Assembly: GCF_015351245.1 (NCBI RefSeq)
Contig: NZ_JADKSO010000005.1
Span: forward strand, 1-64,000
DNA: 64,000 bases
From: Rathayibacter sp. VKM Ac-2879
Lineage (GTDB): Bacteria > Actinomycetota > Actinomycetes > Actinomycetales > Microbacteriaceae
Direction: 5' to 3'
The notes under the pieces are model-generated. The model searched no databases. It had not been told where the DNA came from and saw nothing but the letters and a program-made list of their open reading frames with translations. Below, piece by piece: positions 46,751-59,194 of this stretch (the stretch's first letter is position 1; each line of letters begins with the position of its first letter). The position numbers were made by a program, and so were the translations under genes.

Positions 46751-47728
46751 ATGGACTCCACACGACTCGGCACCAGCGGACTCCAGGTGTCCGCCATCAT
46801 CCTCGGCTGCATGAGCTTCGGTGCGCCCGACCGGGGCGCTCACGGTTGGACCATGGGCGAGGAGGAGTCCCGTCCCTTCCTCCGCCGCGCCCTCGAGCTG
46901 GGCATCACGACCTTCGACACGGCCGACATCTATTCGGACGGGACGAGCGAGGAGTTCGTCGGACGCGCCCTGGCCGACTTCGCGGTGCGCGAGGACGTGG
47001 TCATCGCGACGAAGGTCCACGGGCGGATGCGCCCGGGACCCAATGGGGGCGGACTCTCGCGACGACACATCCTCAGCGCGATCGACGACAGCCTCCGTCG
47101 CCTCGGCACCGACTACGTCGACCTCTACCAGATCCATCGCTGGGACCCGGAGACGCCGATCGAGGAGACGATGGAGACGCTGCACGACGTCGTCCGTTCG
47201 GGGAAGGCGCGGTACATCGGCGCCTCGAGCATGTGGGCGTGGCAGTTCGCGAAGGCGCAGTACACCGCCGATCTCGGCGGGTGGACGCGTTTCGTCTCGA
47301 TGCAGGACCAGTACAACCTGATTCAGCGCGAAGACGAGCGCGAGCTGCATCCGTTCTGTCTCGACCAGGGGGTCGGCGTCATCCCGTGGTCGCCGCTGGC
47401 GCGTGGGCGCCTCACTCGCGACGCGGAGACGACCACGCCGCGCACCGAGACCGACGCCTTCGGCGCGACGCTCTACCACCAGCAGGAGGAGTCGGACCGG
47501 CGCACGATCGCGGCTGTCGCTCACGTCGCCGAGCAGCGCGGAGTGCCGAGGGCGCAGGTCGCGCTCGCCTGGGTTCGCCAGCACGAGGTGGTGACGGCGC
47601 CGATCGTGGGCGCGACCACGCTGCACCACCTCGACGACGCGGTGGCTTCGCTCGCGCTCGAGCTCACGGCGGAGGAGCTCGAGACACTGGGCGCCGACTA
47701 CGCGCCGAGGTTCAACGAGGGTTTCTGA
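46751..47728 (+). CDS. Aldo/keto reductase
   Basis: This NADPH-dependent reductase of aldehydes and ketones has the TIM-barrel AKR fold over 325 residues. Catalytic residues are visible: Asp/Tyr in FDTADIYSDGTSEEFVG, Lys in VIATKVHGRM and His in DLYQIHRWDPETPIEETM. The cofactor site has IPWSPLARGRLTR and PIVGATTLHHLDDAV. The sequence resembles YghZ/GSP69-type reductases for aldehydes or methylglyoxal. ATG 46751 starts MDSTRLGTSG. It lies alone at the left border of the type VII-like locus and is probably not part of it. Confidence 0.92.
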   Translation: MDSTRLGTSGLQVSAIILGCMSFGAPDRGAHGWTMGEEESRPFLRRALELGITTFDTADIYSDGTSEEFVGRALADFAVREDVVIATKVHGRMRPGPNGGGLSRRHILSAIDDSLRRLGTDYVDLYQIHRWDPETPIEETMETLHDVVRSGKARYIGASSMWAWQFAKAQYTADLGGWTRFVSMQDQYNLIQREDERELHPFCLDQGVGVIPWSPLARGRLTRDAETTTPRTETDAFGATLYHQQEESDRRTIAAVAHVAEQRGVPRAQVALAWVRQHEVVTAPIVGATTLHHLDDAVASLALELTAEELETLGADYAPRFNEGF

Positions 47729-47831: not shown

Positions 47832-49769
47832 ATGGCGCGGGGCTCCGGCGAGGCGTTGGGCGCGCATTACCGTCTGCTCGAGCGGATCGGAGCAGGCGCG
47901 TTCGGCGAGGTCTGGCGCGTCCGTGACTCCCGAGACGGCTCGGAGCTCGCCGCGAAGCTGCTGAGGCGCGAGCTCGTCCACGATCCGGGGCTGGTCGAGA
48001 GGTTCGTCCGCGAGCGCTCGGTACTGACCAGGCTCCGGCATCCGCGAGTGGTGGCCGTGCGCGATCTGGTGGTGGAGGGCGAGACGCTCGCGCTGGTGAT
48101 GGAACTCGTCGGAGGAGGGTCGCTGCGCGACCTCCTCGTCGCCGAGGGGCCGTTGGCGCCGGAATGGGCGCTCGCGGCGACGGGCGCTGTGCTCGAGGCC
48201 CTCGCGGCGGCGCATGCGATCGGCATCGTCCATCGCGACGTGAAGCCCGACAACGTCCTGCTCGCCGCGGGGATCGACGACCTCGGCCAGGCGGTCCGCG
48301 TCTCGGACTTCGGGATAGCCCGGGTGGTCTCGGAGGGGCCGCGCTCGACGACGGGCGTCATCGGCACCCCCGAGTACCTCTCGCCCGAGATGCTGACGGT
48401 CGGAGAGGCGGGGCCTCCGAGTGACGTCTATGCCGCCGGCATCCTGCTGTACGAGCTGTTGAGTGGACGGACGCCCTTCGCTGGAGCCGGCACCGACCTG
48501 ACCGTGGCATATCGGCACGTGTCGACGGTGCCGCCACAGCTCGAGCTGCCGGAGCGTGTCGCTCGGGTTCTCGACCGGATGCTCGCGAAGGATCCAGCCG
48601 CGAGGCCGACGGCCGCCGAGGCGGCTGGGCTCCTGCGTGCGCTCGAAGGAGCGGTCGCCGGGCTCCCCGCCCGTCCCCGCGCCGTCGAGGCCCCGTCGTT
48701 CGAGGAGGCGGCGCGGCCCGCGACGCTCCTGCGGGGCGGGCCGGCGATCGAGGAGCGCGGGGCGGAGGTGTCTCCGGGGCCTGTTCCCGAGCTCGGCCCG
48801 GCGTCGAGCCCCACGATCGTGCGCCCGGTGACCCGGCGGGAGCTGCGTGCGGCGGCTCCTGCCGCCTCCGCTCCCGCGACGCCCGCTTCTCGGCGCCGGG
48901 AGGTGCGGATGATCCTGGCCGCGGTCGGCGCGGCCCTGGTCCTTGTGGGGGCGGTCCTCGTTGCGATCCTGCCGCGCGCAGAGGGGCCTCCTTCGGAGTC
49001 GTCGGGTGGCACGTTCGCGGTCCAGCAGCAGGACCGCCCGCTCCCCGCAGGCCTGGGAGTCGCTCGCAGCGCGAGCTACGACTCCGAGAGCCGCGTCCTG
49101 TCGCTGAGATTCTCGTACTCGGCCCAGAGCGCGCCGCTGAGCGCGCCGCTGCTCGAGGTGCTGCCCGGCATGGCGGCGGAGTGCCCGGCCGTCTCGTGGT
49201 CGGGAGCCGTGGGTGTCCGGAACCGGCCGAGCGTGACGGGGGTCGGGGTCGACTGCGGGTGGAGTCTCACCGGAGTGGAGATCCCGGCTCAGGGCTCGGT
49301 CGAGGTCGCCGCGAGCATGGTCCTCGACGTCGGCGATCCGGGCGCCCTGCGTGCGTGGCTCGATCGAGCGGCCGCGGCGACGGCCGCCGCCGTGTCGGAT
49401 GTCGGTGTCAGCGGCACCGCCTACGCGGTCCAACGGATCCGCGACGTCAGGATCGAGACACCGGCACGCACGGTCAGCCAGACCGCCCTGCCGGTGACCC
49501 TCGTGCCGGTGTGGCCGGCGGGTGTCGATCCCGTGAACCCGCTCTTCACGAGCCCGTCCACGGGGCGGGCGAGCGGCATGCTCGACGCGATCGCGGGCGG
49601 AGTCTCGGGGGTGCGCCTCAGCGACGGCTGCGGCGGGGCCGTCGCGGTGTCGTCCGACGGGTTGACGGTGACGGCGCTCTCAATGACGCCGGCGTGTGAG
49701 CTGCGCGCCCGCGTGGGCAACTTCGCCGATCTCGCGAGCGATCCGTTCGCGATCACGACACGCGAGTAG
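47832..49769 (+). CDS. Transmembrane Ser/Thr protein kinase with a unique exterior domain
   Basis: This eukaryotic-type kinase (645 residues) has glycine loop GAGAFGEV at 20-27, Lys42, catalytic loop HRDVKPDN at 134-141, DFG at 159-161, activation-loop Thr173/Thr174 and SPE at 184-186. A Pro/Ala linker (280-355), one span at about 360-380, and an exterior region of about 265 residues follow. That region has no PASTA repeats; instead it is beta-rich with a Cys pair (about 465 and 487) and another near 610-628. ATG 47832 has AGGAGG at 6 nt. It precedes the WXG100 gene and faces the FHA-containing ATPase, so it is a candidate to phosphorylate Thr residues read by that FHA domain. Confidence 0.93.
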   Translation: MARGSGEALGAHYRLLERIGAGAFGEVWRVRDSRDGSELAAKLLRRELVHDPGLVERFVRERSVLTRLRHPRVVAVRDLVVEGETLALVMELVGGGSLRDLLVAEGPLAPEWALAATGAVLEALAAAHAIGIVHRDVKPDNVLLAAGIDDLGQAVRVSDFGIARVVSEGPRSTTGVIGTPEYLSPEMLTVGEAGPPSDVYAAGILLYELLSGRTPFAGAGTDLTVAYRHVSTVPPQLELPERVARVLDRMLAKDPAARPTAAEAAGLLRALEGAVAGLPARPRAVEAPSFEEAARPATLLRGGPAIEERGAEVSPGPVPELGPASSPTIVRPVTRRELRAAAPAASAPATPASRRREVRMILAAVGAALVLVGAVLVAILPRAEGPPSESSGGTFAVQQQDRPLPAGLGVARSASYDSESRVLSLRFSYSAQSAPLSAPLLEVLPGMAAECPAVSWSGAVGVRNRPSVTGVGVDCGWSLTGVEIPAQGSVEVAASMVLDVGDPGALRAWLDRAAAATAAAVSDVGVSGTAYAVQRIRDVRIETPARTVSQTALPVTLVPVWPAGVDPVNPLFTSPSTGRASGMLDAIAGGVSGVRLSDGCGGAVAVSSDGLTVTALSMTPACELRARVGNFADLASDPFAITTRE

Positions 49770-49925
49770 GCGACGTCCTGCGCCGGGTGTCGTCCGATGC
49801 TGTCGTCACCTCTCAGGGGTAAGAGGTCGGCTTCTACACTAGCGAGATATCCTCACTCTTGCCGCGCGGCGGGAGGAGGAGCCGAGCGGGAGGGTCCCGT
49901 CTCGAACACAAGAAGGGTGTGGTTC

Positions 49926-50207
49926 ATGTCACGTGTCCTCTCGACCGAGCAGGCGAAGTCGGCGATCCAGCAGATCCAGTCGATCGTCAACGGCGGTCTG
50001 AGCGATCAGATCAACCAGTTAGACGCACAGGGTCGGACCCTGTCGGATCCGAACGTCTGGGACGGTCCGCTGGCCTCGCAGTTCCGGTCCTCGACCTGGC
50101 CCGAGACCAGATCGGCCCTCGACAGGGCCAAGCACGAGCTGGAGGAGCTGCGCACGCAGCTCGCGACGATCTCACAGAACATCTTCGCGGCCGGCGGCGG
50201 CAGCTGA
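49926..50207 (+). CDS. WXG100 (ESAT-6-like) type VII secretion protein
   Basis: WXG100 proteins are small helical hairpins, substrates and often signals of type VII secretion. The 93 residues form two helices (about 7-33 and 53-86) around a turn containing VWDGPLASQF, the WxG motif, and end NIFAAGGGS. There is a single such gene, so it may act as a homodimer, as in Firmicutes EsxA. The classical C-terminal YxxxD/E is not obvious. ATG 49926 has AAGGGTG upstream and a TACACT box at about 49833. It is convergent with the ATPase gene, separated by a hairpin. Confidence 0.85.
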   Translation: MSRVLSTEQAKSAIQQIQSIVNGGLSDQINQLDAQGRTLSDPNVWDGPLASQFRSSTWPETRSALDRAKHELEELRTQLATISQNIFAAGGGS

Positions 50208-50215
50208 TCGGGGCC

Positions 50216-50247
50216 TTCCGCCCCCTCCGGCGATGGGCGGGGCGGAA
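50216..50247. terminator. Bidirectional terminator between WXG100 and ATPase genes
   Basis: TTCCGCCCC (50216-50224) pairs perfectly with GGGGCGGAA (50239-50247) around a 14 nt loop, in the 46 bp gap between the convergent stop codons. Confidence 0.75.
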
Positions 50248-50253
50248 CACGCC

Positions 50254-53200
50254 CTACCTCGGGCGCGCGGGCGTTGGCGACACCGACTGCACGAAGTGGA
50301 GCGCCCCCGCGAGGCACGCGTAGCCGCGGCCGATCGTCGCGGGCACCGGGGTGCGCCTCGGGAGCGCGATGCCGAACAGGCTCCCGTCGCTGTCGACGTC
50401 GGGTTGGAGGAGGAGGCCGCATCGGGAGCGGGCGAGGGTCTTCGTCCAGTGCGAGTAGGAGTTCCGCAGCTCGGTCGAGCGGCCGGCCGCGACGACGCGG
50501 AGACCCGGACGAGGCGTCGTGATCAGCGTCGCGATCGCCTGGTCGGGGTCGTCCCAGCGCTCGGCGTCGTCGATGAGCAGCAGCACCGTGCTCGTCTCTA
50601 CGAGGAGGCCGGCAAGGAGGTCTGCGAGCCCGCCCACGTCGACGGCGAGCCGGTCGAGCCCTGCGTCGAGGAGCGGCGATCGCCGACCGCAGGCACCCCA
50701 CACCGCGACGGGGTGCTCCGGCGTCGAGGCCGCACGGGCCGCCTCCGCGATCGCGAGGAGCACCGTCGACTTGCCCGAGCGTGCGGGGCCGGCTACGAGG
50801 GCGTGCTCGCCCTCGAAGACCTCGAGCGAGACGGGGGCGAGATCGGCCTCGTCCAGCCCGATCGGGATCGACCACGGCTCGGAGTCGAAGCGCGCGTGTA
50901 CGCCGAGGTCGCCCACCGCGACCCGCTCGGGCAGGATTCCGATCGCGGGGTGCTTCGCAAGGCTTGGAGGCGCGGTCGCCGTGATCTCGGCGACGGCGTC
51001 GATCAGGGGGGTCACCGTGGCCGCGACGTGCGACTGGAGGAGCGAAGTGGTCATCACGCAGCGACCCGGCACTGGCGGCGGCGTGTGTGTCGCCTTCAGC
51101 CCGGCGAAGGAGTAGTCCTGCGGATCGGCGAGGCGGAACAGCCACTTCTGCGTGGTGACCTCCTCCATCGCTGACGGCAGAGCCCTCACTCGCGTGGTGG
51201 TCACGGCGAAGTGCAGGCCGAGCGCCGGTCCGTCGGCGTAGGCGCGGTAGAGCCCGTCGAGGAGAGCTAGCCCCTCGATGTCCGAGAACTCGTCCCGGAG
51301 GGCGGCCAGTCCGTCGATCATCACGATGGTGCGGCGCCGGGCGTCGGCGGAGGCACGCCGACGGCGGACCTCGTCGCGCACGTGGCGGAGGAAGCGTGTC
51401 TGCGTCTCGTGCGCTCCGGGCCCCGCGCCGACGTACGCCACGGTGTGCGGGAGGGCCTCGAGCGGCGCACCCTCGCGGCCCGTGGCGTCGAGGACGAGAA
51501 GATCGAGCTCGTCGGGCGGGAAGTGCCGTGCGGCCGTGAGAGCGAGCGAGGCGAGAGCGGTGCTGGTGCCGCTGCCCGGGATCCCGATCAGCAGCAGGTT
51601 TCCCTCCCGGATATCCCATCCTGCCGCGATCTGCCGTTGGTGCTCCGGATCGTCTGACAGGGCGACCCGCACGACATCGTCGAGGACGGTTCCGAGCTCG
51701 GACTCCGCTGTGCCGCCTCCCAGGAGCACCCGCTCGCCGAGGGGCTCCGGCCAGACCGGACGCGGAGGCGCAAGATGAGCCTCCGCGTTCGCGGCGACCA
51801 CGGCATCGAGGAGGAGGTCGAGGTCGCTCGGAGAGGACTCGTCGACCGTGGGGGGCGGCGGCGCAGTGGAGGCTCCCGTGAAGCCGACGGGCTGGATCTC
51901 GACCGTCTCGGCCGGCTCTGCCTCCGCTCGGCCCGTGACGAGCGCGGTCTGCACCGGCGTGATGTCGTTCTGCCCGAGCTTGACGTAGGCGCGGCCGGTC
52001 TGGGTGCGCGAGATCTCGGAGGCGCTCGGTGCGCCGATCACATGGACGGAGTCGTCGCGGCTCTGGACCCGCAGGGCGACTCGGAGGTTGGTGTTGGCGA
52101 GGATGTCGTCGGTGACGACTCCGGCTGGCCGCTGGGTCGCGAGGATCATGTGCACGCCGAGCGTACGGCCGACGGCGCCGATGCTCACGAGCGAGGAGAG
52201 CACCTCCGGATGCTCTTTCGCCAGCATGGCGAACTCGTCGACCACGAGCAGCAGGCGGGGCATGGGCTCGGAGGGCAGGGTCGCCGTGTAGGCGTCGAGC
52301 GTGTCGATCCCCTCGCCGGCCGCCGCGAAGATGCGCTGTCGTCGCTGCATCTCGGCTTCGAGCGAGCGAAGCGCACGGTCGGCCAGCTGGGCGTCGAGGT
52401 TGCTGATAGTGCCGATGGTGTGCGGGAGCCGCTCGCACGCGGCGAATGCCGCGCCGCCCTTGAAATCGATCAGGATGAAGTTCAGCCTCGTCGGGTCGTT
52501 CCTGGCCGCGAGCCCTGCGACGAACGAACGCAGGAACTCGCTTTTACCCGATCCCGTGGTGCCGCCGACGAGGCCGTGTGGCCCGTCTTTCACGAGGTCG
52601 AGCAGGAGCGGTCCGTGCTCGCTCGTCCCGACCGGTGCCTCGATCCCCTGCGCCGACGACCACCAGGCGAGCACGGCGTCGGCCGTGGGTCGCGAGACTC
52701 CCAGGAGCGGGGGCAGGCGCACCAGGGAGGGGAGGGAGGCGTCGCCGGTGGCCAGTTCCGGATCCTCGAGTCGAGCGAGGTCGCGCGCGCACCGCTCGGC
52801 GGTCGCGACGCTCAGCCCCGCGAGGACGACGTCGTCGACCCGCGTGCGCGCGTTCGGGCGGATCACGCTCGCCGCGGCGTCGGGTTCGACGGGGACCACG
52901 ATGCTGCACGAGGCGGGCAGCTGCTCCTCGGTGGCTGCGATGACGATGCCGGCGATCCGGGTCGCGGGGGTGCGCTCGCCGCGCCCTGTCCCCAGCAGCT
53001 CCCGCGCGAGCGCGTCACGGCCGGCGAGGAGAACCTCGGAGTCGAGGACGAGGAGGAGCCCGGCCGTGGCGCTGTCGCGGAGGGCGCGGAGGAGCGCAGT
53101 GCTCCGCTCGCGCTCGCTCGAGAGTCGGCTCTCGCCTCCCGTCGTGCGCGTGTGCGGAAGCCAGGAGGTCCAGCTCCACTCGGCCTCTCGGCCCCGATCG

Positions 53201-54477
53201 CAGAACACTCCGACGGCCAGGTCGGCCGGACCGCAGTGCACGGCCGCCTGACAGAGCAGGCTGCGCGCGAGTGCCAGGGCCCCGGCTCGCTCGCCGACGA
53301 TCCCCACGACTCCGGCGTCGCTGAGGTCGATGGCGACGGGGGCTGCGGTGATGACGCACGACCCGGCGATCTCTCGCACCTCCTCGTCGGCGCGCAGCCC
53401 CGGGCGCTCGTCGAGCGGTGGACTCCACGGGACGTCGCCGACCCCGGCGTGGAGCGACAGGAAGCCGGTCGAGTGGCCGCGACGCTGCCAGAGCGAGGTC
53501 GTCGGGAGAGCGGCGCGGCGCACGGCGGTGGCGGGATCGGGCGCGTCCTCCTCGAGCCGGCACCTCTCGGAGCGGCAGGCATGTGCCAGCTCGTCGCGGA
53601 ACGTCTGTAGCGCCGCGGTGAAGCGCGCCTCCTCGGCCCGCGTCGATCGGGTGTGTCGGTGTCTCTGCTCGAACCACATGCCGACGCCGGCGATCGGGCT
53701 GAGCGCCGCGAAGAGGGCATATCGAGCGTCGCCCATGATGACCACCATCGCGAAGGCGAGAACCAGCGGCGCCGCCAGGGTGACCGCGCTGAACCGGGAG
53801 ACGGAGGGGATCGAGACCCGCGCCGGCGGCACGACAGGCGGTACCGGCTCTGAGCGACCCGGCCGGGGCGGTCGATTGAACGGCACCGTAGCAGCGCGGG
53901 TGACGGTGCGCGGACGGTCGGGTCCTGGGACGCGTGGCTCGTCGAGCTCGGGTCGGAGGAGCAGGCTGACCCCACCGGCGATCATGACTGAGGTCGTGGT
54001 CACGAGGACGCCGGACTCATCGACCGCGGCACCCTCGACGAGAGTGCCGTTGGTGGAGTCGCAGTCGCGCACCCGCACTCCGTCCCCCTCGCGGATGAGC
54101 GTGAGGTGCGCCCAGGAGGCGCTTGCGCTCGGGAGGACGAGGTCGGCCTGCGGAGCCCGGCCGACTGTGAGCGGGCGGCTCCGTGGCACCTCTGCTATTG
54201 CTCCCGCGTCCGGCCCGCCGGACATCGTCACGGTCCAGCCGCGGACGGAGCGGGGGAGCTCTTGCGGGGAGCGGGCGATCCTGGTCCCCTCGAGCAGCAG
54301 GAGCTCGTCGAGCGGCGTCTCGGCCACGTGGAGCGCCGTGTCGACGGCGAGCACGCTCTCCGCCTCCGGTCGACGACCGGTGGCCGTCTCGACCAGATCG
54401 CTGAGGGTGGCGCCGGGGCGATGGCGGCCGAGTCGGATGTCGTGACGCTCGTCGTCGAGCTCGAGGAGCAGGCGCAT
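50254..54477 (-). CDS. EssC/EccC-type FtsK-SpoIIIE secretion ATPase with N-terminal FHA domain
   Basis: This is the motor of a type VII-like secretion system (1407 residues). Residues 1-75 are a small beta domain, and about 83-172 form an FHA domain with GR at 106-107, SASWAH and TNG at 142-144. Two spans follow at about 231-247 and 251-268. ATPase 1 has Walker A GGTTGSGKS (638-646) and Walker B LLLVVDEFA (Asp747/Glu748). ATPase 2 has GIPGSGTST (965-973) with Thr in place of the P-loop Lys. ATPase 3 has GPARSGKST (1230-1238). The single FHA and joined ATPases resemble Firmicutes EssC more than split EccCa/EccCb. ATG 54477 follows the binding-protein gene by 8 nt. Confidence 0.93.
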   Translation of the reverse strand: MRLLLELDDERHDIRLGRHRPGATLSDLVETATGRRPEAESVLAVDTALHVAETPLDELLLLEGTRIARSPQELPRSVRGWTVTMSGGPDAGAIAEVPRSRPLTVGRAPQADLVLPSASASWAHLTLIREGDGVRVRDCDSTNGTLVEGAAVDESGVLVTTTSVMIAGGVSLLLRPELDEPRVPGPDRPRTVTRAATVPFNRPPRPGRSEPVPPVVPPARVSIPSVSRFSAVTLAAPLVLAFAMVVIMGDARYALFAALSPIAGVGMWFEQRHRHTRSTRAEEARFTAALQTFRDELAHACRSERCRLEEDAPDPATAVRRAALPTTSLWQRRGHSTGFLSLHAGVGDVPWSPPLDERPGLRADEEVREIAGSCVITAAPVAIDLSDAGVVGIVGERAGALALARSLLCQAAVHCGPADLAVGVFCDRGREAEWSWTSWLPHTRTTGGESRLSSERERSTALLRALRDSATAGLLLVLDSEVLLAGRDALARELLGTGRGERTPATRIAGIVIAATEEQLPASCSIVVPVEPDAAASVIRPNARTRVDDVVLAGLSVATAERCARDLARLEDPELATGDASLPSLVRLPPLLGVSRPTADAVLAWWSSAQGIEAPVGTSEHGPLLLDLVKDGPHGLVGGTTGSGKSEFLRSFVAGLAARNDPTRLNFILIDFKGGAAFAACERLPHTIGTISNLDAQLADRALRSLEAEMQRRQRIFAAAGEGIDTLDAYTATLPSEPMPRLLLVVDEFAMLAKEHPEVLSSLVSIGAVGRTLGVHMILATQRPAGVVTDDILANTNLRVALRVQSRDDSVHVIGAPSASEISRTQTGRAYVKLGQNDITPVQTALVTGRAEAEPAETVEIQPVGFTGASTAPPPPTVDESSPSDLDLLLDAVVAANAEAHLAPPRPVWPEPLGERVLLGGGTAESELGTVLDDVVRVALSDDPEHQRQIAAGWDIREGNLLLIGIPGSGTSTALASLALTAARHFPPDELDLLVLDATGREGAPLEALPHTVAYVGAGPGAHETQTRFLRHVRDEVRRRRASADARRRTIVMIDGLAALRDEFSDIEGLALLDGLYRAYADGPALGLHFAVTTTRVRALPSAMEEVTTQKWLFRLADPQDYSFAGLKATHTPPPVPGRCVMTTSLLQSHVAATVTPLIDAVAEITATAPPSLAKHPAIGILPERVAVGDLGVHARFDSEPWSIPIGLDEADLAPVSLEVFEGEHALVAGPARSGKSTVLLAIAEAARAASTPEHPVAVWGACGRRSPLLDAGLDRLAVDVGGLADLLAGLLVETSTVLLLIDDAERWDDPDQAIATLITTPRPGLRVVAAGRSTELRNSYSHWTKTLARSRCGLLLQPDVDSDGSLFGIALPRRTPVPATIGRGYACLAGALHFVQSVSPTPARPR

Positions 54478-54485
54478 GGATGTCC

Positions 54486-55796
54486 TCAGGGTCGGGGCTG
54501 CTCGGCGAACCAGAGCAGAGGCGTGGCCGCCGTGCGGGGGCGCAGGCCCAGGTCGTGTGCCGTGGCGTGCAGGGGGACGAGCGCGGCCGAGAGAGCGGAT
54601 CGCCTGCCGAAGTCGAGCGGGGGGCCGGCGAGTCCTTCGGCGGTGCCCATCGTCGAGCCGCGGAGGGCGGCGGTGACGGCGGAGGGCTCGCCGCTGCCCG
54701 CCCTCGCCGCCGCGCGAACGAGTGCGACGACCGCGTCGTGACTGGGCGCATCGGCCGAGGCCGCGACGTCGGCGAACGGTCGGTCGTCGAAGAGGGCCGT
54801 GCGGCGGGCGTCGCCGGCGGCGATCCGCACTCCTGCGAGGAACGCCGACATGGCGAGCCCCGCTTCGTCGCCGCGCAGGGCGACGGCGTCGCCCGACTCG
54901 ACCCCGACGGTGCTCATCTCTCCGGAGAGGGTGCCGCCCGCGGCGAGCAGCGCCGGCGCGAAGGCGGGACTGCGCGCATCGGGCGTCAGCAGGAGAGGGA
55001 GAGAAGCCCCCGCCGATTGGAGCGCTCCGACGGCCGCTCCTTGTTGTTCCGCCGGACCGGACACGAGAACCCGTTCGGCGGGTGCGTCGCCCGTGAGGTG
55101 ACTCCGTACGGAGTCGATGAACGCTCCCGCAGGGTCCCCCGGCGCGAAGCGGAGCTCGGCCTCGGCGTCGAGTCCCTCGGGTGCGTCTCCTCCTCCGTTG
55201 ACGAGAAGCAGCCGGGTCGGCGAGGTCGAGGGGGTGCCGAGAGAGGCGAGCGCGGTATCGATTCGGGCCCGGTCGGGTGCGATCAGCCAGGCGTCGTCGC
55301 CGATCGATGTGGCGTCCTGCGGGTAGGGGAGGATCGCGGCGAGGCCGTTCGACCGTGCGGCGTCGATCGCGGCGGACAGGTGGGGACCGCTGGTCGCGAG
55401 GACCACTCCGGCGACGCCGGAGTCCGCGAGGTCGGTGAGGGCGGAGCGGGCACCCTCGGCTGTTCCGTGATCGTCGGCCGCCACCAGACGGACCGTGCAG
55501 CCGCCGAGCGCGAACCTCTGCGCCGCGACGACGGCGCCGTTTGCGGCGTCCTTCCACTCGGCGCCTTCGCCCGGCGCGGAGCTCAGCGAGGCGACCACGC
55601 CGAGCGTGAGCGCAGAGGGCGCCCCGGCGCAGTCGAGGTCGACCGGCACCGAGGCTGCGGCCGACGTGCGGTTCGCCGAGCCGGTGCCGGCGGCGAGGAG
55701 GCTACCGCCCGCGAGGAGGAGGACCGCCACGCCGCCTCCGAGAGCGAGCAGGGAACGCTGCGGGCGCGCTCGTCGCCGTCGGCCGACGCGTCTCAT
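54486..55796 (-). CDS. Periplasmic-binding-protein type I fold, exported (LivJ-like)
   Basis: The 436-residue protein has an N-terminal Arg-rich segment and a hydrophobic stretch at about 16-37 acting as signal or anchor. A Leu/Ile/Val-binding-type fold follows: LTLGVVASLSSAPGEGAEW, VRLVAADDHGTAEGARSALTDLADS, GVVLATSGPHLSAAIDAARS, SIGDDAWLIAPDRA and DAPSHDAVVALVRAAARAG. No ABC permease or ATPase lies nearby, so uptake is unlikely. It overlaps the upstream lipoprotein gene (ATGA) and precedes the secretion ATPase by 8 nt, so it is an operon partner of type VII-like secretion, perhaps as an exterior sensor or assembly factor. That is inference. Confidence 0.82.
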   Translation of the reverse strand: MRRVGRRRRARPQRSLLALGGGVAVLLLAGGSLLAAGTGSANRTSAAASVPVDLDCAGAPSALTLGVVASLSSAPGEGAEWKDAANGAVVAAQRFALGGCTVRLVAADDHGTAEGARSALTDLADSGVAGVVLATSGPHLSAAIDAARSNGLAAILPYPQDATSIGDDAWLIAPDRARIDTALASLGTPSTSPTRLLLVNGGGDAPEGLDAEAELRFAPGDPAGAFIDSVRSHLTGDAPAERVLVSGPAEQQGAAVGALQSAGASLPLLLTPDARSPAFAPALLAAGGTLSGEMSTVGVESGDAVALRGDEAGLAMSAFLAGVRIAAGDARRTALFDDRPFADVAASADAPSHDAVVALVRAAARAGSGEPSAVTAALRGSTMGTAEGLAGPPLDFGRRSALSAALVPLHATAHDLGLRPRTAATPLLWFAEQPRP

Positions 55797-58540
55797 GGTC
55801 GACCGCCGAGGTGGATCGAATACACCGTCCGGGTCACGGTCCCGGCGTCCACGTCGCGAGGGAAGGCGGGAAGCGCAGCCCCGGCGTCGAGCGAGGCGCG
55901 CTCCTGCGCCTGCGCGAGGAGGATCCCCGAGATGTCCTCCGCGCGAACGGCGGCGTAGCCCCGAGAGGCCTGCGAGGCGAGGGCGAGCTGCACATCGGCC
56001 GTACCGACCTTTGCGGCACTTGTCGTCATCGAGCCGAGGAGACCCGAGCCTCCCACCGTGCGGTCGCCGAGATCGAGAAGGACCTTGTGGAGATCGGCGG
56101 CGAGGAGGGCGGAGGCGGCATTGGTGTCGCGGGTGGAGGCCCCGATCGTCGCGGCGATCTTCGCGAGCGACTCGTGGGTGCTCTCCGCGACCGCGGCACC
56201 GATCGTCGACTCCGCTGAGTCGAGGGCGTCGTGTTCGGCGTCGAGCGTCGCGGCCCCCTCGCTCCGGATGTCGTCGGCGGTCGCGCGCAGGCCCGCGATC
56301 GACCGGTCGAACAGTGCCGTGACCGCGGCCGTGTCGGAGTCCGAGCGGGACGTCACGTGCCGCACCTGCTCGTCGATGACCGCCGTGACGGCGGAGGAGG
56401 CGTGCGAGTCGGCGTCCGCGAACGCCTCTCGGATCGCGACCGCGAGCCCCGCCTGCTGCTGGGAGAGTTCCGCGACCCTGCCGCCGAGAGCCTCGCGCTG
56501 CAGCCTGAGTGACGTGGTGGTCCGCGTGAGATCGGCGAGCAGTGCGGCGCGCGAGGAGCCCTCGGCGCTCGTGGCCGCGGCGGCGGCCGTCGCTGCGGTG
56601 CGCAGGACGCCGAGCGCATCGCGAACTCGGGAGAGCTCGCCGCCCGCACCGCTCGAGCCGGTGAGTCGGGCGACTGCTCGCCACTGTTCCGTCTGCTCGG
56701 CGAGCCGTTGGTCGAGGGGCGCCGGATAGCCCGTCGGCGCATCGAGGTCGCCGATGCCCGAGCACGGGACATCGGTGAGGTAGGAGCGGATCCGTTCGAT
56801 CGCCTCCCGGCCCAGTGCGGGGGATGCGCGCGGCGTGGGAGAGGCGGTGCCCGCCGGGCTCGGAGTGAGGTCGCACAGCTGTCGTGCCACGTCTGCGGTC
56901 TGTGCCGCGATCGATTCTCTGTCGGTACGGGAGCCGAGTGGGGCGAGCGCCGTCGATGCCGCCGTCCCGATCGCGTCGAGAGCCGTTCCCAGTGCCGCCG
57001 CGCGATCGTCCAGGGCGTCCACCGTCGTCGTCAGAGTCGCGAGCTGTGGGGAGACCATGCTGTCGGGAGTCGCCGCGAGTGCATCGGAGGTCGCGGCGAC
57101 CTCGTCGATGCGGGCGGAGAGTGATCGGTACTCGGCCGAGAGCCCGCTCCTCAGCTCGGGCTGCAAAGAGGTGACGAGGGCGCGTCCCTCGTTCACGAGA
57201 CCCTGCAGGATCCCGTCCACCGCGCTCCGTGTCGTCGAGAGCGCGCAGGTCACCGATGCCGTCGTACAGCTCTCGGCGCTCGGCGACTCCGGGCCCACCG
57301 CATCGCGCAGCGAGGCGACGAGCTGCTGCCTGCAGGAGTCGGCTGCGGCGCCGTAGCCGTCGAGCTCGGCGACCAGCCGCAGCAGGTCTCCGTAGATCGT
57401 GGTCGCGTCCTCGGGGGCCCGGGCGATGATGGCGCACCCCGAGCCGGAGAGCGTCGAGGTGGGGGCGGGGGCCGAGGTGTCGCCGAGCATCGCGTCGACG
57501 GCGCCGACGGCGTGCGAGAGCTGCCGCACCAGCTCCGACTCCGTGCCGTCGACCGTCGCGGAGAGCTCGTCGCGCAACGCACTGAGCTGCCCTGAGAGGC
57601 CCTGCATCGACGAGGCGGTCGAGGCGGCGCTGCGCCTCAGCTCCTCAGCCGTACGGACGCCGAGCGTCTCGGCCGTGGCGTCGAGGGAGGTGCGCACTTC
57701 GGCGACTGTCGTGCCTGCGCGGGTGAGCAGCTCGTCGACCGAGGTGATGACGTCGATGGTGCGGCGCTCGAGCGCGAGGGGCGAGGTCACGCTCGTGTCG
57801 AAGGCCGCGCCGATCGCTCCGGACGGACTCGCATCGCTCGTGAGCCCGGGCTGGACCGCGAGGTCGAACGACGGCACGGCGAAGTCGCCGACGTCGGCCA
57901 CCAGACGGAGCGTCGCGGTGGCGCCCCCTGTCGGTGGCGTGAGCAGGGCGGCCCACTGCACCACAGCGTCGCCCGTGTCGTCGCGGCTGAGCACGCCGTT
58001 GGTCGCCGCACCGGTCTCGGCCTGCGTCACGACGTGGCTGGGAGCGACACCGTGCAGAGAGGTCGAGGCGACGATCGTGAGTGGCGCGCCGACCAGGGCG
58101 GCCCGACTGGCCGCGCGCCCCGCGACATCGAACGTCAGCTCCTCGGGGTGCACGGTGAGGTTCTCGACCACGATCTCGATTTCGACGCGACCCGAGCGCC
58201 CGGCGAGATCGGCGAGGTCGCTCCCGGAGGCGTCGCCCGCGCGGTAGGAGGTGCGCACGCGCACCGGGAGGTCGCCCGCGACCTTGGCCGGGTCGTAGCT
58301 CGTGCTCGCCGTGCTGATCTGCGTCGGGTCGGCCCCGACTCCCACGGCCGTGCCGTCGATCCGCACCACGGACCCGTCCGTGCCGGCCACGACCGCCACC
58401 GATTGCAGCACTCGGGCGGCGTGGCCGAGGTCGGGAGGCTGGGGCGTGCAGCCCGCGAGAAGGATCGCGGCGACCGCGACTCCGAGTGCCGGTCGGTGGC
58501 CGCCACGCCTCTGCGGGCCAGGTGCTGTCGAGCGCTGCAT
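55793..58540 (-). CDS. Large coiled-coil lipoprotein of the type VII-like operon
   Basis: This unknown protein (915 residues) has a lipobox ILLAGC with Cys31 as the lipidation site. A beta-rich N-domain (about 60-265) contains DLAGRSGRVEIEIVVENLT and AVVQWAALLTPP. A very long helical region (about 270-880) has Ala/Ser/Thr-rich heptads, several Cys (for example CAII, CRQQL, CTTASVTC), a Pro-rich break and a C-terminal VYSIHLGG. The N-domain pattern recalls the exterior part of YhgE/Pip/EsaA-like proteins of Firmicutes type VII systems, though with a lipid anchor and no C-terminal spans. ATG 58540 has GAGGGGA upstream. It could form an exterior conduit or tether; no function is proven. Confidence 0.8.
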   Translation of the reverse strand: MQRSTAPGPQRRGGHRPALGVAVAAILLAGCTPQPPDLGHAARVLQSVAVVAGTDGSVVRIDGTAVGVGADPTQISTASTSYDPAKVAGDLPVRVRTSYRAGDASGSDLADLAGRSGRVEIEIVVENLTVHPEELTFDVAGRAASRAALVGAPLTIVASTSLHGVAPSHVVTQAETGAATNGVLSRDDTGDAVVQWAALLTPPTGGATATLRLVADVGDFAVPSFDLAVQPGLTSDASPSGAIGAAFDTSVTSPLALERRTIDVITSVDELLTRAGTTVAEVRTSLDATAETLGVRTAEELRRSAASTASSMQGLSGQLSALRDELSATVDGTESELVRQLSHAVGAVDAMLGDTSAPAPTSTLSGSGCAIIARAPEDATTIYGDLLRLVAELDGYGAAADSCRQQLVASLRDAVGPESPSAESCTTASVTCALSTTRSAVDGILQGLVNEGRALVTSLQPELRSGLSAEYRSLSARIDEVAATSDALAATPDSMVSPQLATLTTTVDALDDRAAALGTALDAIGTAASTALAPLGSRTDRESIAAQTADVARQLCDLTPSPAGTASPTPRASPALGREAIERIRSYLTDVPCSGIGDLDAPTGYPAPLDQRLAEQTEQWRAVARLTGSSGAGGELSRVRDALGVLRTAATAAAAATSAEGSSRAALLADLTRTTTSLRLQREALGGRVAELSQQQAGLAVAIREAFADADSHASSAVTAVIDEQVRHVTSRSDSDTAAVTALFDRSIAGLRATADDIRSEGAATLDAEHDALDSAESTIGAAVAESTHESLAKIAATIGASTRDTNAASALLAADLHKVLLDLGDRTVGGSGLLGSMTTSAAKVGTADVQLALASQASRGYAAVRAEDISGILLAQAQERASLDAGAALPAFPRDVDAGTVTRTVYSIHLGGRP

Positions 58541-58693: not shown

Positions 58694-59194
58694 TCAGAGC
58701 AGCGCGAGCTTCTTGCGGAGCGCCTGCACGTGGCCCGTGGCGCGCACGCCGTATTGCGCGAACTCGAGCACACCCTCCTGCCCGACCACGAAGGTCGAGC
58801 GCAGCACGCCCACGACCGCCTTGCCGTAGAGGTTCTTCTCGCCCCACACGCCGTAGGCGCGGTGTGCGGCCATGTCGGGGTCGCTGAGCAGCGGGTAGGC
58901 GATGCCCTGCGCATCCGCCCAGCGACGCAGCGCCTCCGGGGTATCGCGCGAAAGACCGAGGATCTCGTAGCCCGAGTCGCGCAGCGACGCGGCATTGTCA
59001 CGGAAGTCACACGCCTCGGTCGTGCAGCCCGGGGTGTCGGCCTCCGGGTAGAAGAAGAGGATCACGCGCCGCCCGCGGTACTCCTCGAGCGAGACGGGCC
59101 GGCCGTCCTGGTCGGGGAGGGTGAACGCGGGGGCGGTGTCGCCCGCGGCGAGCCGCTCGTCGGCGGGGATCGGGGGGAGGGTGCTGCCGGTCAT
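58694..59194 (-). CDS. bcp: Bcp-type thioredoxin-dependent peroxiredoxin
   Basis: Bcp reduces hydrogen peroxide and organic peroxides using thioredoxin. The 166-residue protein has the thioredoxin fold with PAFTLPDQDGRPVSL, peroxidatic Cys57 and resolving Cys62 in PGCTTEACDFRD, YEILGLSRDTPE, and STFVVGQEGVLEF. The two Cys in the C-x4-C pattern mark the atypical two-Cys class. ATG 59194 overlaps the rsgA stop (ATGA), so aroA-rsgA-bcp form one minus-strand operon. The nearby sigR suggests thiol-stress linkage but bcp has no visible SigR promoter of its own. Confidence 0.95.
   Translation of the reverse strand: MTGSTLPPIPADERLAAGDTAPAFTLPDQDGRPVSLEEYRGRRVILFFYPEADTPGCTTEACDFRDNAASLRDSGYEILGLSRDTPEALRRWADAQGIAYPLLSDPDMAAHRAYGVWGEKNLYGKAVVGVLRSTFVVGQEGVLEFAQYGVRATGHVQALRKKLALL

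Follow-up and report, generated by a model that had tools for sequence, protein, structure and literature searches.

A five-gene locus in Rathayibacter sp. VKM Ac-2879 probably encodes a self-contained type VII secretion (T7SS) machine, of a subtype outside the published T7SSa-T7SSj, with secretion itself predicted from sequence. The genes specify a transmembrane (TM) Ser/Thr kinase (P1), a WXG100 protein (P2), an EssC-like ATPase with an FHA domain (P3), a protein with a periplasmic-binding fold (P4), and a lipoprotein (P5), and they form one unit. The locus lies within a 64,000-nucleotide stretch of DNA, called the window below. General features of type VII systems are present there, as both an EssC/EccC FtsK-type ATPase and a WXG100 protein are matched. 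Related loci were collected in a scan with the ATPase as bait, which yielded 100 relatives, and the best 80 loci were kept.

Organization and constraint of the locus

All five frames are open and intact at 47832-58540, where the initial annotation had placed them, and they form the two convergent units it described: P1 and P2 on the plus strand, and P5-P4-P3 on the minus strand (Table 1). P4 and P3 are spaced by 8 bp and P5 overlaps P4 by 4 bp. The neighbouring genes bcp, aroA and rsgA are ~84-96% identical to Rathayibacter proteins.

Table 1. Features of the locus and its flanks, in window coordinates
Feature	Position	Strand	Length	Description and basis
Flanking aldo/keto reductase	46751..47728	+	325 aa	ORF coordinates; function from the initial annotation and by eye
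P1, transmembrane Ser/Thr kinase	47832..49769	+	645 aa	Kinase domain, linker, one TM (~361-379), extracellular domain with 4 Cys; Pkinase E 2e-51 (Pfam/NCBIfam)
Candidate FHA docking stretch in P1 linker	48723..48824	+		TLLR (residue 298), TIVR (residue 328)
P2, WXG100 protein	49926..50207	+	93 aa	WDG motif
Cargo slot, empty in the window	50208..50253		46 bp	Lies between the P2 and P3 ends
P3, EssC-like ATPase	50254..54477	-	1407 aa	FHA, hydrophobic membrane region (~229-270), three ATPase domains
FHA domain of P3	53950..54216	-		Pfam FHA / Yop-YscD_cpl; pThr-binding R107, S121, H124, N143 retained
P4, type-1 periplasmic-binding fold with N-terminal TM anchor	54486..55796	-	436 aa	Profile and hydrophobic N-terminus
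P5, lipoprotein	55793..58540	-	915 aa	Conserved N-domain, long helical region, conserved Cys, no second TM
Flanking bcp-type peroxiredoxin	58694..59194	-	166 aa	Function by eye

The five genes are constrained, as judged from their pN/pS values. Against R. iranicus these are 0.33 for P3, 0.40 for P4 and 0.47 for P5, and against Microbacterium they are 0.49, 0.68 and 0.73, with 0.50 for the kinase. The WXG100 gene gives 0.15 against R. tanaceti. P4 and P5 are the fastest-diverging of the set: they stand at ~61-64%, whereas the ATPase is at 71-73%, WXG100 at 91% and the kinase, over the part seen, at 70%. Surface parts often diverge fast. A promoter scan of the locus predicted no promoter, and terminator predictions numbered 2, versus 0.9 in shuffles.

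The description of the locus as a compact T7SS-like set lacking canonical Ecc/Esa partners held up in a Pfam/NCBIfam scan, where the five proteins matched none of these families except ATPase models. Two other identities were considered and set aside. A PADLOC search for defence genes (E up to 0.01) returned kinase-domain and FtsK/HerA-type matches and one marginal ZorA match, and no system. A phage-borne locus was rejected after a search of viral_contigs gave no match.

Motifs of the kinase, the ATPase and the WXG100 protein

The kinase family keeps its catalytic motifs, with HRD in 24/24 and DFG in 21/24 members by pattern. Its linker is variable except for a recurrent threonine motif. T[VIL][VIL]R occurs 92 times in 62 distinct linkers (drawn from 63 kinases of usable length), versus a mean of 1.2 and a maximum of 5 in 500 shuffles, and shared descent explains part of this excess because the linkers come from homologous kinases. 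At least one copy is found in 55 of the 62 linkers and at least two in 37, while seven have none. In the same kinases the motif is absent from the kinase domain and the ectodomain. These linker threonines could be docking sites for the FHA domain of the ATPase.

P3 matches the EssC model TIGR03928, its best NCBIfam match, with 461 bits (E 8e-138), which is under the equivalog cut-off of 778; the FHA domain is matched as well. The pThr-binding residues of this domain are invariant in 20/20 ATPases. Walker motifs are intact in D1 and D3, and the Walker-A Lys of D2 is replaced, by Thr in 19/20 ATPases. The WXG100 protein taken alone gives weak matches (TIGR03930 E 4e-4, Pfam E 0.0017), both under cut-off. 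Its WDG motif is retained in all 40 aligned rows, which comprise the window protein and 39 relatives, several of them near-identical.

P4 and P5 as paired surface proteins

A single P4 sequence reaches a family match only at E 0.12, but when 30 P4 sequences are combined into a profile, it matches amino-acid-binding proteins in the PDB (4nqr, E 5e-8), and 10 of the 30 members match Peripla_BP_6 in Pfam. On this profile evidence P4 is assigned a type-1 periplasmic-binding fold, with ligand binding putative.

P5 has a lipobox at residue 31 and no later strongly hydrophobic stretch. No Pfam/NCBIfam family matches it above cut-off. What matches there are belongs to a general helical or coiled-coil type: Apolipoprotein at E 6e-5, SMC-like models, matched by as many as 11 of 29 relatives, and 382 sequences of the PDB (E up to 1), led by apolipoprotein A-IV. 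The N-domain of P5 finds nothing in the PDB up to E 10 and only weak single-member matches in Pfam (best E 0.007). Profile comparison does not support an EsaA/YhgE relationship for P5. When its N-domain is set against an EsaA/YhgE profile built from 10 sequences, the probability is 0.1%; the whole protein gives 77%, but over a coiled-coil stretch only. The P5 profile also has weak matches of 16 bits at a T7SSd-type locus (L123) and 29 bits in another genome (G389), which we took as helical chance and did not count.

The distribution of lipid anchors hints that the two proteins form one complex. Over 71 P4/P5 pairs, a strict lipobox pattern falls on P5 only in 63, on P4 only in five, on neither in three and on both in none. 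In each of the three pairs without a strict lipobox, one partner has a near-lipobox by eye. This pattern, which rests on few evolutionary switches, may reflect a complex that needs a single lipid anchor.

The ATPase lineage and T7SSd

Among the variants T7SSa-T7SSj, T7SSd is the only added subtype in Actinomycetota, and it is the minimal kit with a kinase that has been published for actinobacteria, according to Garrett et al. 2024 (PMC11217815). Its genes are given there as kinase, TsdH, TsdI, WXG100 and EssC, where TsdI is a large Ig-like protein with a C-terminal TM and TsdH a short single-TM protein. Olsenella and Bifidobacterium are named as members, and Rhs and LXG candidate substrates are reported (PMC11217815). 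The initial annotation had regarded WXG100 plus EssC as a known minimal kit in actinobacteria; the published kit of this kind with a kinase is T7SSd, and the window ATPase falls outside the clade of the T7SSd-type rows tested.

Two trees, of 54 and 52 ATPases, place the window lineage in a clade separate from the T7SSd-type rows, with support of 96-100 and a long stem (quick method, midpoint root, composition bias flagged). The T7SSd-type rows are three loci from the family of B. apri (L122-L124), not the published TsdC set. They carry T7SSd-type genes for a kinase, TsdH-like and TsdI-like proteins, WXG100 and EssC, although the TsdI-like gene of L122 is not resolved and the kinase of L123 lies outside the stretch. 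EssC/EccC-like ATPases in general are common: 125 of 296 genomes have one in a class-wide sample (E 1e-80), and 78 of 150 in a sample of the R. iranicus family (E 1e-100). Across 18 other actinobacterial EssC loci that were scanned, L122-L124 among them, P4 was found in none, and one gave a weak P5 score of 16 bits.

The window locus might be a T7SSd system whose TsdH and TsdI have diverged, which we consider unlikely. The core is the same, with one WXG100, an FHA-EssC with an intact pThr motif, a TM kinase, rare YukD, and a home in Actinomycetota (PMC11217815), and B. apri has a window-type ATPase beside a WXG100 gene and an Rhs ORF. However, the ATPase clades stand apart in both trees, and in the B. 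apri family the ATPase of B. apri itself scores 2227 bits, whereas the three T7SSd-type ATPases reach 570-575 and three others 397-427. As for the partners, no TsdI is found at the locus. P5 was considered for that role and finds no support in it: it has no later TM and matches a TsdI profile, which consists of two sequences only, with a probability of 0.2-0.4%. Judged from intergenic distances, no gap in the locus can hold a TsdH gene. We favour a subtype of its own, in which P4 and P5 are present instead of TsdH and TsdI.

The module does move. Its flanks differ across genera and the ATPase tree mixes families, placing Leucobacter with Enteractinococcus, for example, which is in line with transfer. 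The initial annotation had proposed an insertion between the aldo/keto reductase and bcp genes. In this lineage the insertion is not a recent one, because the bcp-P5 junction is shared with R. iranicus (L001) and with R. tanaceti (L147).

Rhs genes and the empty slot

Rhs cargo beside WXG100 in relatives is a feature that the initial annotation missed. The commonest extra neighbour (cluster 4) is an Rhs/YD-repeat giant, present in 52 of the 80 loci, where L054 is an antisense artefact. It lies at most 600 bp from WXG100 in 29 of the 40 loci in which WXG100 was found. The other 11 have no Rhs-cluster gene within 600 bp, although three have one within ~2 kb and some are cut contigs. These large ORFs beside WXG100 were first guessed, by size, to be TsdI, a candidate that was dropped on finding Rhs repeats in them; one scanned giant has 19 RHS stretches. 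A WXG-like [DE]FxGx[FY] turn lies near the N-terminus of 29 of the 41 Rhs members that are uncut at the 5′ end. In Curtobacterium, small and often repeated ORFs follow the Rhs gene. They look like immunity genes, and those scanned match no family above cut-off. The Rhs toxins near related loci probably target competing bacteria.

In R. tanaceti (L017), the space from WXG100 to the ATPase is occupied by Rhs ORFs and a transposase-like ORF (the latter by eye). The 64-kb window contains no Rhs gene anywhere, and the corresponding WXG100-ATPase gap is the 46-bp slot. The window strain keeps the machine, and its cargo must be outside the slot, either elsewhere in the genome or lost. The slot that is filled in R. 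tanaceti and empty here would also suit a locus in decay whose toxin is already gone. We judge this improbable, since all five frames are open and constrained, and cargo may lie elsewhere in the genome.

It is less plausible still that the genes make a signalling or envelope-homeostasis device with no exporter, in which WXG100 regulates the ATPase. A TM kinase with HRD and DFG, an FHA domain, a sensor-like P4 and a window free of Rhs genes would all suit such a device. Yet Rhs genes sit near WXG100 in most relatives where WXG100 was found, and the Rhs and LXG candidates reported for T7SSd (PMC11217815) likewise point to export. A secretion machine remains the reading we prefer.

Co-occurrence, conserved order and mobility on plasmids

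The clade ATPase occurs in 3 of 150 and 9 of 149 genomes of two family samples, and P5 occurs in exactly the same 3 and 9. One genome of each sample was its chosen centre, which accounts for 2 of the 12 positives among 299 genomes. Clade membership was set at more than 2000 bits after the gap had been seen, the next best scores being 1296 and 616 bits. In the class-wide sample of 296 genomes, scored for two candidates per genome only, the sole clade member was the centre genome itself, so the system is not common.

Among the best 80 of the 100 loci, P4 is found in 73, P5 in 72, the kinase in 69 and WXG100 in 40. The last count is held down by the limit on flank length, as one Curtobacterium shows: in the single genome of that genus checked (L171), the WXG100 gene (E 1e-55) lies beyond the 10-kb flank. 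The order P5-P4-P3 on one strand is kept in 71 of the 80 loci, or in 72 of the 72 that have all three genes if L024 is counted, which fails by an over-long ATPase ORF only. The 4-bp overlap of P5 with P4 recurs in 51 of the 66 pairs in which it could be measured. The identical set of 12 genomes and the conserved order show that the binding protein and lipoprotein, which the initial annotation called distinctive partners, are conserved ones.

Eight loci lack P4 or P5. Three of them are cut by contig ends (L017, L031, L044), while in five (L042, L054, L062, L068, L079) the absence of P4/P5 appears real, and window P5 finds nothing in the whole genomes of four of the five (all but L068). As these five ATPase loci have no P4/P5 within reach, the pair is not absolutely required. 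Most members without P4/P5 are nested inside the ATPase clade, which we read as several losses; L079 and a P5-less pair (G416/G483) are at the base.

Two of these loci have features of their own. In Leucobacter 7(1) (L079, 9267-16169), a WXG100 gene and a diverged ATPase gene stand without P4/P5, and the ORF after them (644 aa) has an N-terminus that looks WXG-like by eye; this is possibly a reduced form. In Propioniciclava (L042, 8315-14260), P4/P5 are missing and a partial kinase match (35%, 419 aa) has the ATPase on one side and a bcp gene on the other; the arrangement looks like a shrunken copy at a bcp site.

The lineage is found in Curtobacterium, Arthrobacter, Microbacterium, Rothia, Cutibacterium and others. 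Plasmid p2 of Rothia terrae carries Rhs-WXG100-kinase and P5-P4-ATPase, and p1 carries the same five genes with an RHS-core gene beside the ATPase. Profiles confirmed all five genes on p1, and the kinase and WXG100 on p2. Protein accessions are identical on p1 (L148) and p2 (L149), copper-handling genes are near, and the Rothia terrae WXG100 protein is annotated as a 'pyrophosphorylase'.

It is very unlikely that P4 and P5 are mere passengers, such as components for ABC uptake, that happen to adjoin a minimal WXG100/EssC locus: the amino-acid-binding-protein fold of P4 and the five relatives without either protein would allow it, but exact co-occurrence in 299 genomes, gene overlap, and an order kept across families and on plasmids oppose it, and no permease or ABC ATPase gene is seen in the unit.

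Proposed mechanism

From gene content, conservation, co-occurrence, motifs and the position of cargo genes, all observed, we infer a mechanism in which secretion, phosphorylation, docking, a P4-P5 complex and the role of each part are predictions. The extracellular domain of the kinase would sense an envelope signal, upon which the kinase would phosphorylate itself on the linker threonines of TLLR and TIVR. The EssC-like ATPase would then dock on the phosphorylated linker through its FHA domain, and the machine would thereby be assembled or switched on. The ATPase would then drive export of WXG100 and, in relatives, also of the Rhs toxin, whose N-terminal WXG-like hairpin may act as the export signal. 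On the outer side of the membrane, P4 and P5 would form a lipid- and membrane-anchored pair in place of EsaA or TsdI. By its composition and by analogy, P5 may be a stalk or conduit through the wall, and P4 a ligand-binding sensor or gate.

A more specific version is tentative. The system might be a ligand-gated, kinase-switched subtype, in which P4 captures a small-molecule ligand in the wall zone, the P4-P5 pair signals its state to the ectodomain of the kinase, the ATPase is recruited via its FHA domain once the linker has autophosphorylated, and WXG100-guided Rhs toxin is fired at neighbours. Such a subtype would spread between actinobacterial families and on plasmids.

Comparison with known type VII secretion systems

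T7SS genes in Rathayibacter have been noted before, as the R. toxicus genome paper mentions T7SS proteins together with YD/RHS-repeat proteins in one sentence, with no system described in that passage (PMC5552033). The Pontimonas genome paper states, in the passage concerned, that the species is without a type VII system (PMC6106888). A search for T7SSd and later letters, with preprints and subscription papers outside its scope, found only the 2024 paper (PMC11217815). Its main text, to the extent covered, has no mention of Arthrobacter, Propionibacterium, Cutibacterium, Microbacteri-, lipoprotein or binding protein. Searches joining type VII secretion with Microbacteriaceae, Arthrobacter or Micrococcales gave nothing on this system among the matches listed, and those listed for a search over several genera were mostly microbiome surveys. 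The locus probably represents an unnamed T7SS subtype, which would count as new if secretion is shown, and it differs from T7SSd in those tests that could be made.

The locus resembles T7SSa/ESX in having an EccC-type motor and WXG100. Unlike ESX, no EccB, EccD or mycosin is seen at the locus. EccB was found in 1 of 16 clade-positive genomes, and control genomes were positive in 0/14, so the sensitivity of this search rests on one match. That genome (G384) is also the YukD case, and its ESX-type gene set is on another contig.

With T7SSb (Ess/Yuk) the locus shares a single WXG100 and an FHA-EssC-type ATPase. In contrast to T7SSb, no EssA, EssB, EsaA or EsaB is seen at the locus, and the kinase keeps its catalytic motifs, whereas EssB is a pseudokinase (PMC11217815). 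YukC/EssB (EssB) and YukD (EsaB) were each found in 1 of 16 clade-positive genomes, with a positive B. subtilis control. R. iranicus is the sole EssB case and also has EsaA; its EssB adjoins a separate EssC in two ORFs. The T7SSb-like set of this genome comprises EsaA above cut-off on one contig (L141, 1-9417) and, on a second contig (L170, 9588-11507), EssB, the EssC in two adjacent ORFs and an LXG-like ORF (by eye). The initial annotation had raised the prospect of canonical genes elsewhere that partner this ATPase. Such genes do exist elsewhere in R. iranicus and G384, but EssB of R. iranicus adjoins its own EssC. P5, as a proposed long extracytoplasmic part, is like EsaA/YhgE-Pip, and unlike it in having no TM bundle.

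The nearest published system by gene content is T7SSd. Shared with it are WXG100, an FHA-EssC with an intact pThr site, a TM Ser/Thr kinase, a nearby candidate Rhs, and a lack of YukD at the locus. T7SSd-type loci have T-[VI]-L or TTL in the TsdH-like tail (by eye), whereas the threonine motifs here are in the kinase linker. This suggests that the FHA ligand may be offered by TsdH in T7SSd and by the kinase linker in the present lineage. The lineage would add another actinobacterial subtype beside T7SSd, with two unnamed surface components. Its compact form in soil members would lend itself to testing how a type VII machine gets through the cell wall when EsaA and the Ecc complex are lacking, and whether EssC FHA domains really link phosphorylation to secretion. 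Set beside T7SSd, the window system is distinguished by an ATPase in a separate clade and by having P4 and P5 but no TsdH or TsdI at the locus.
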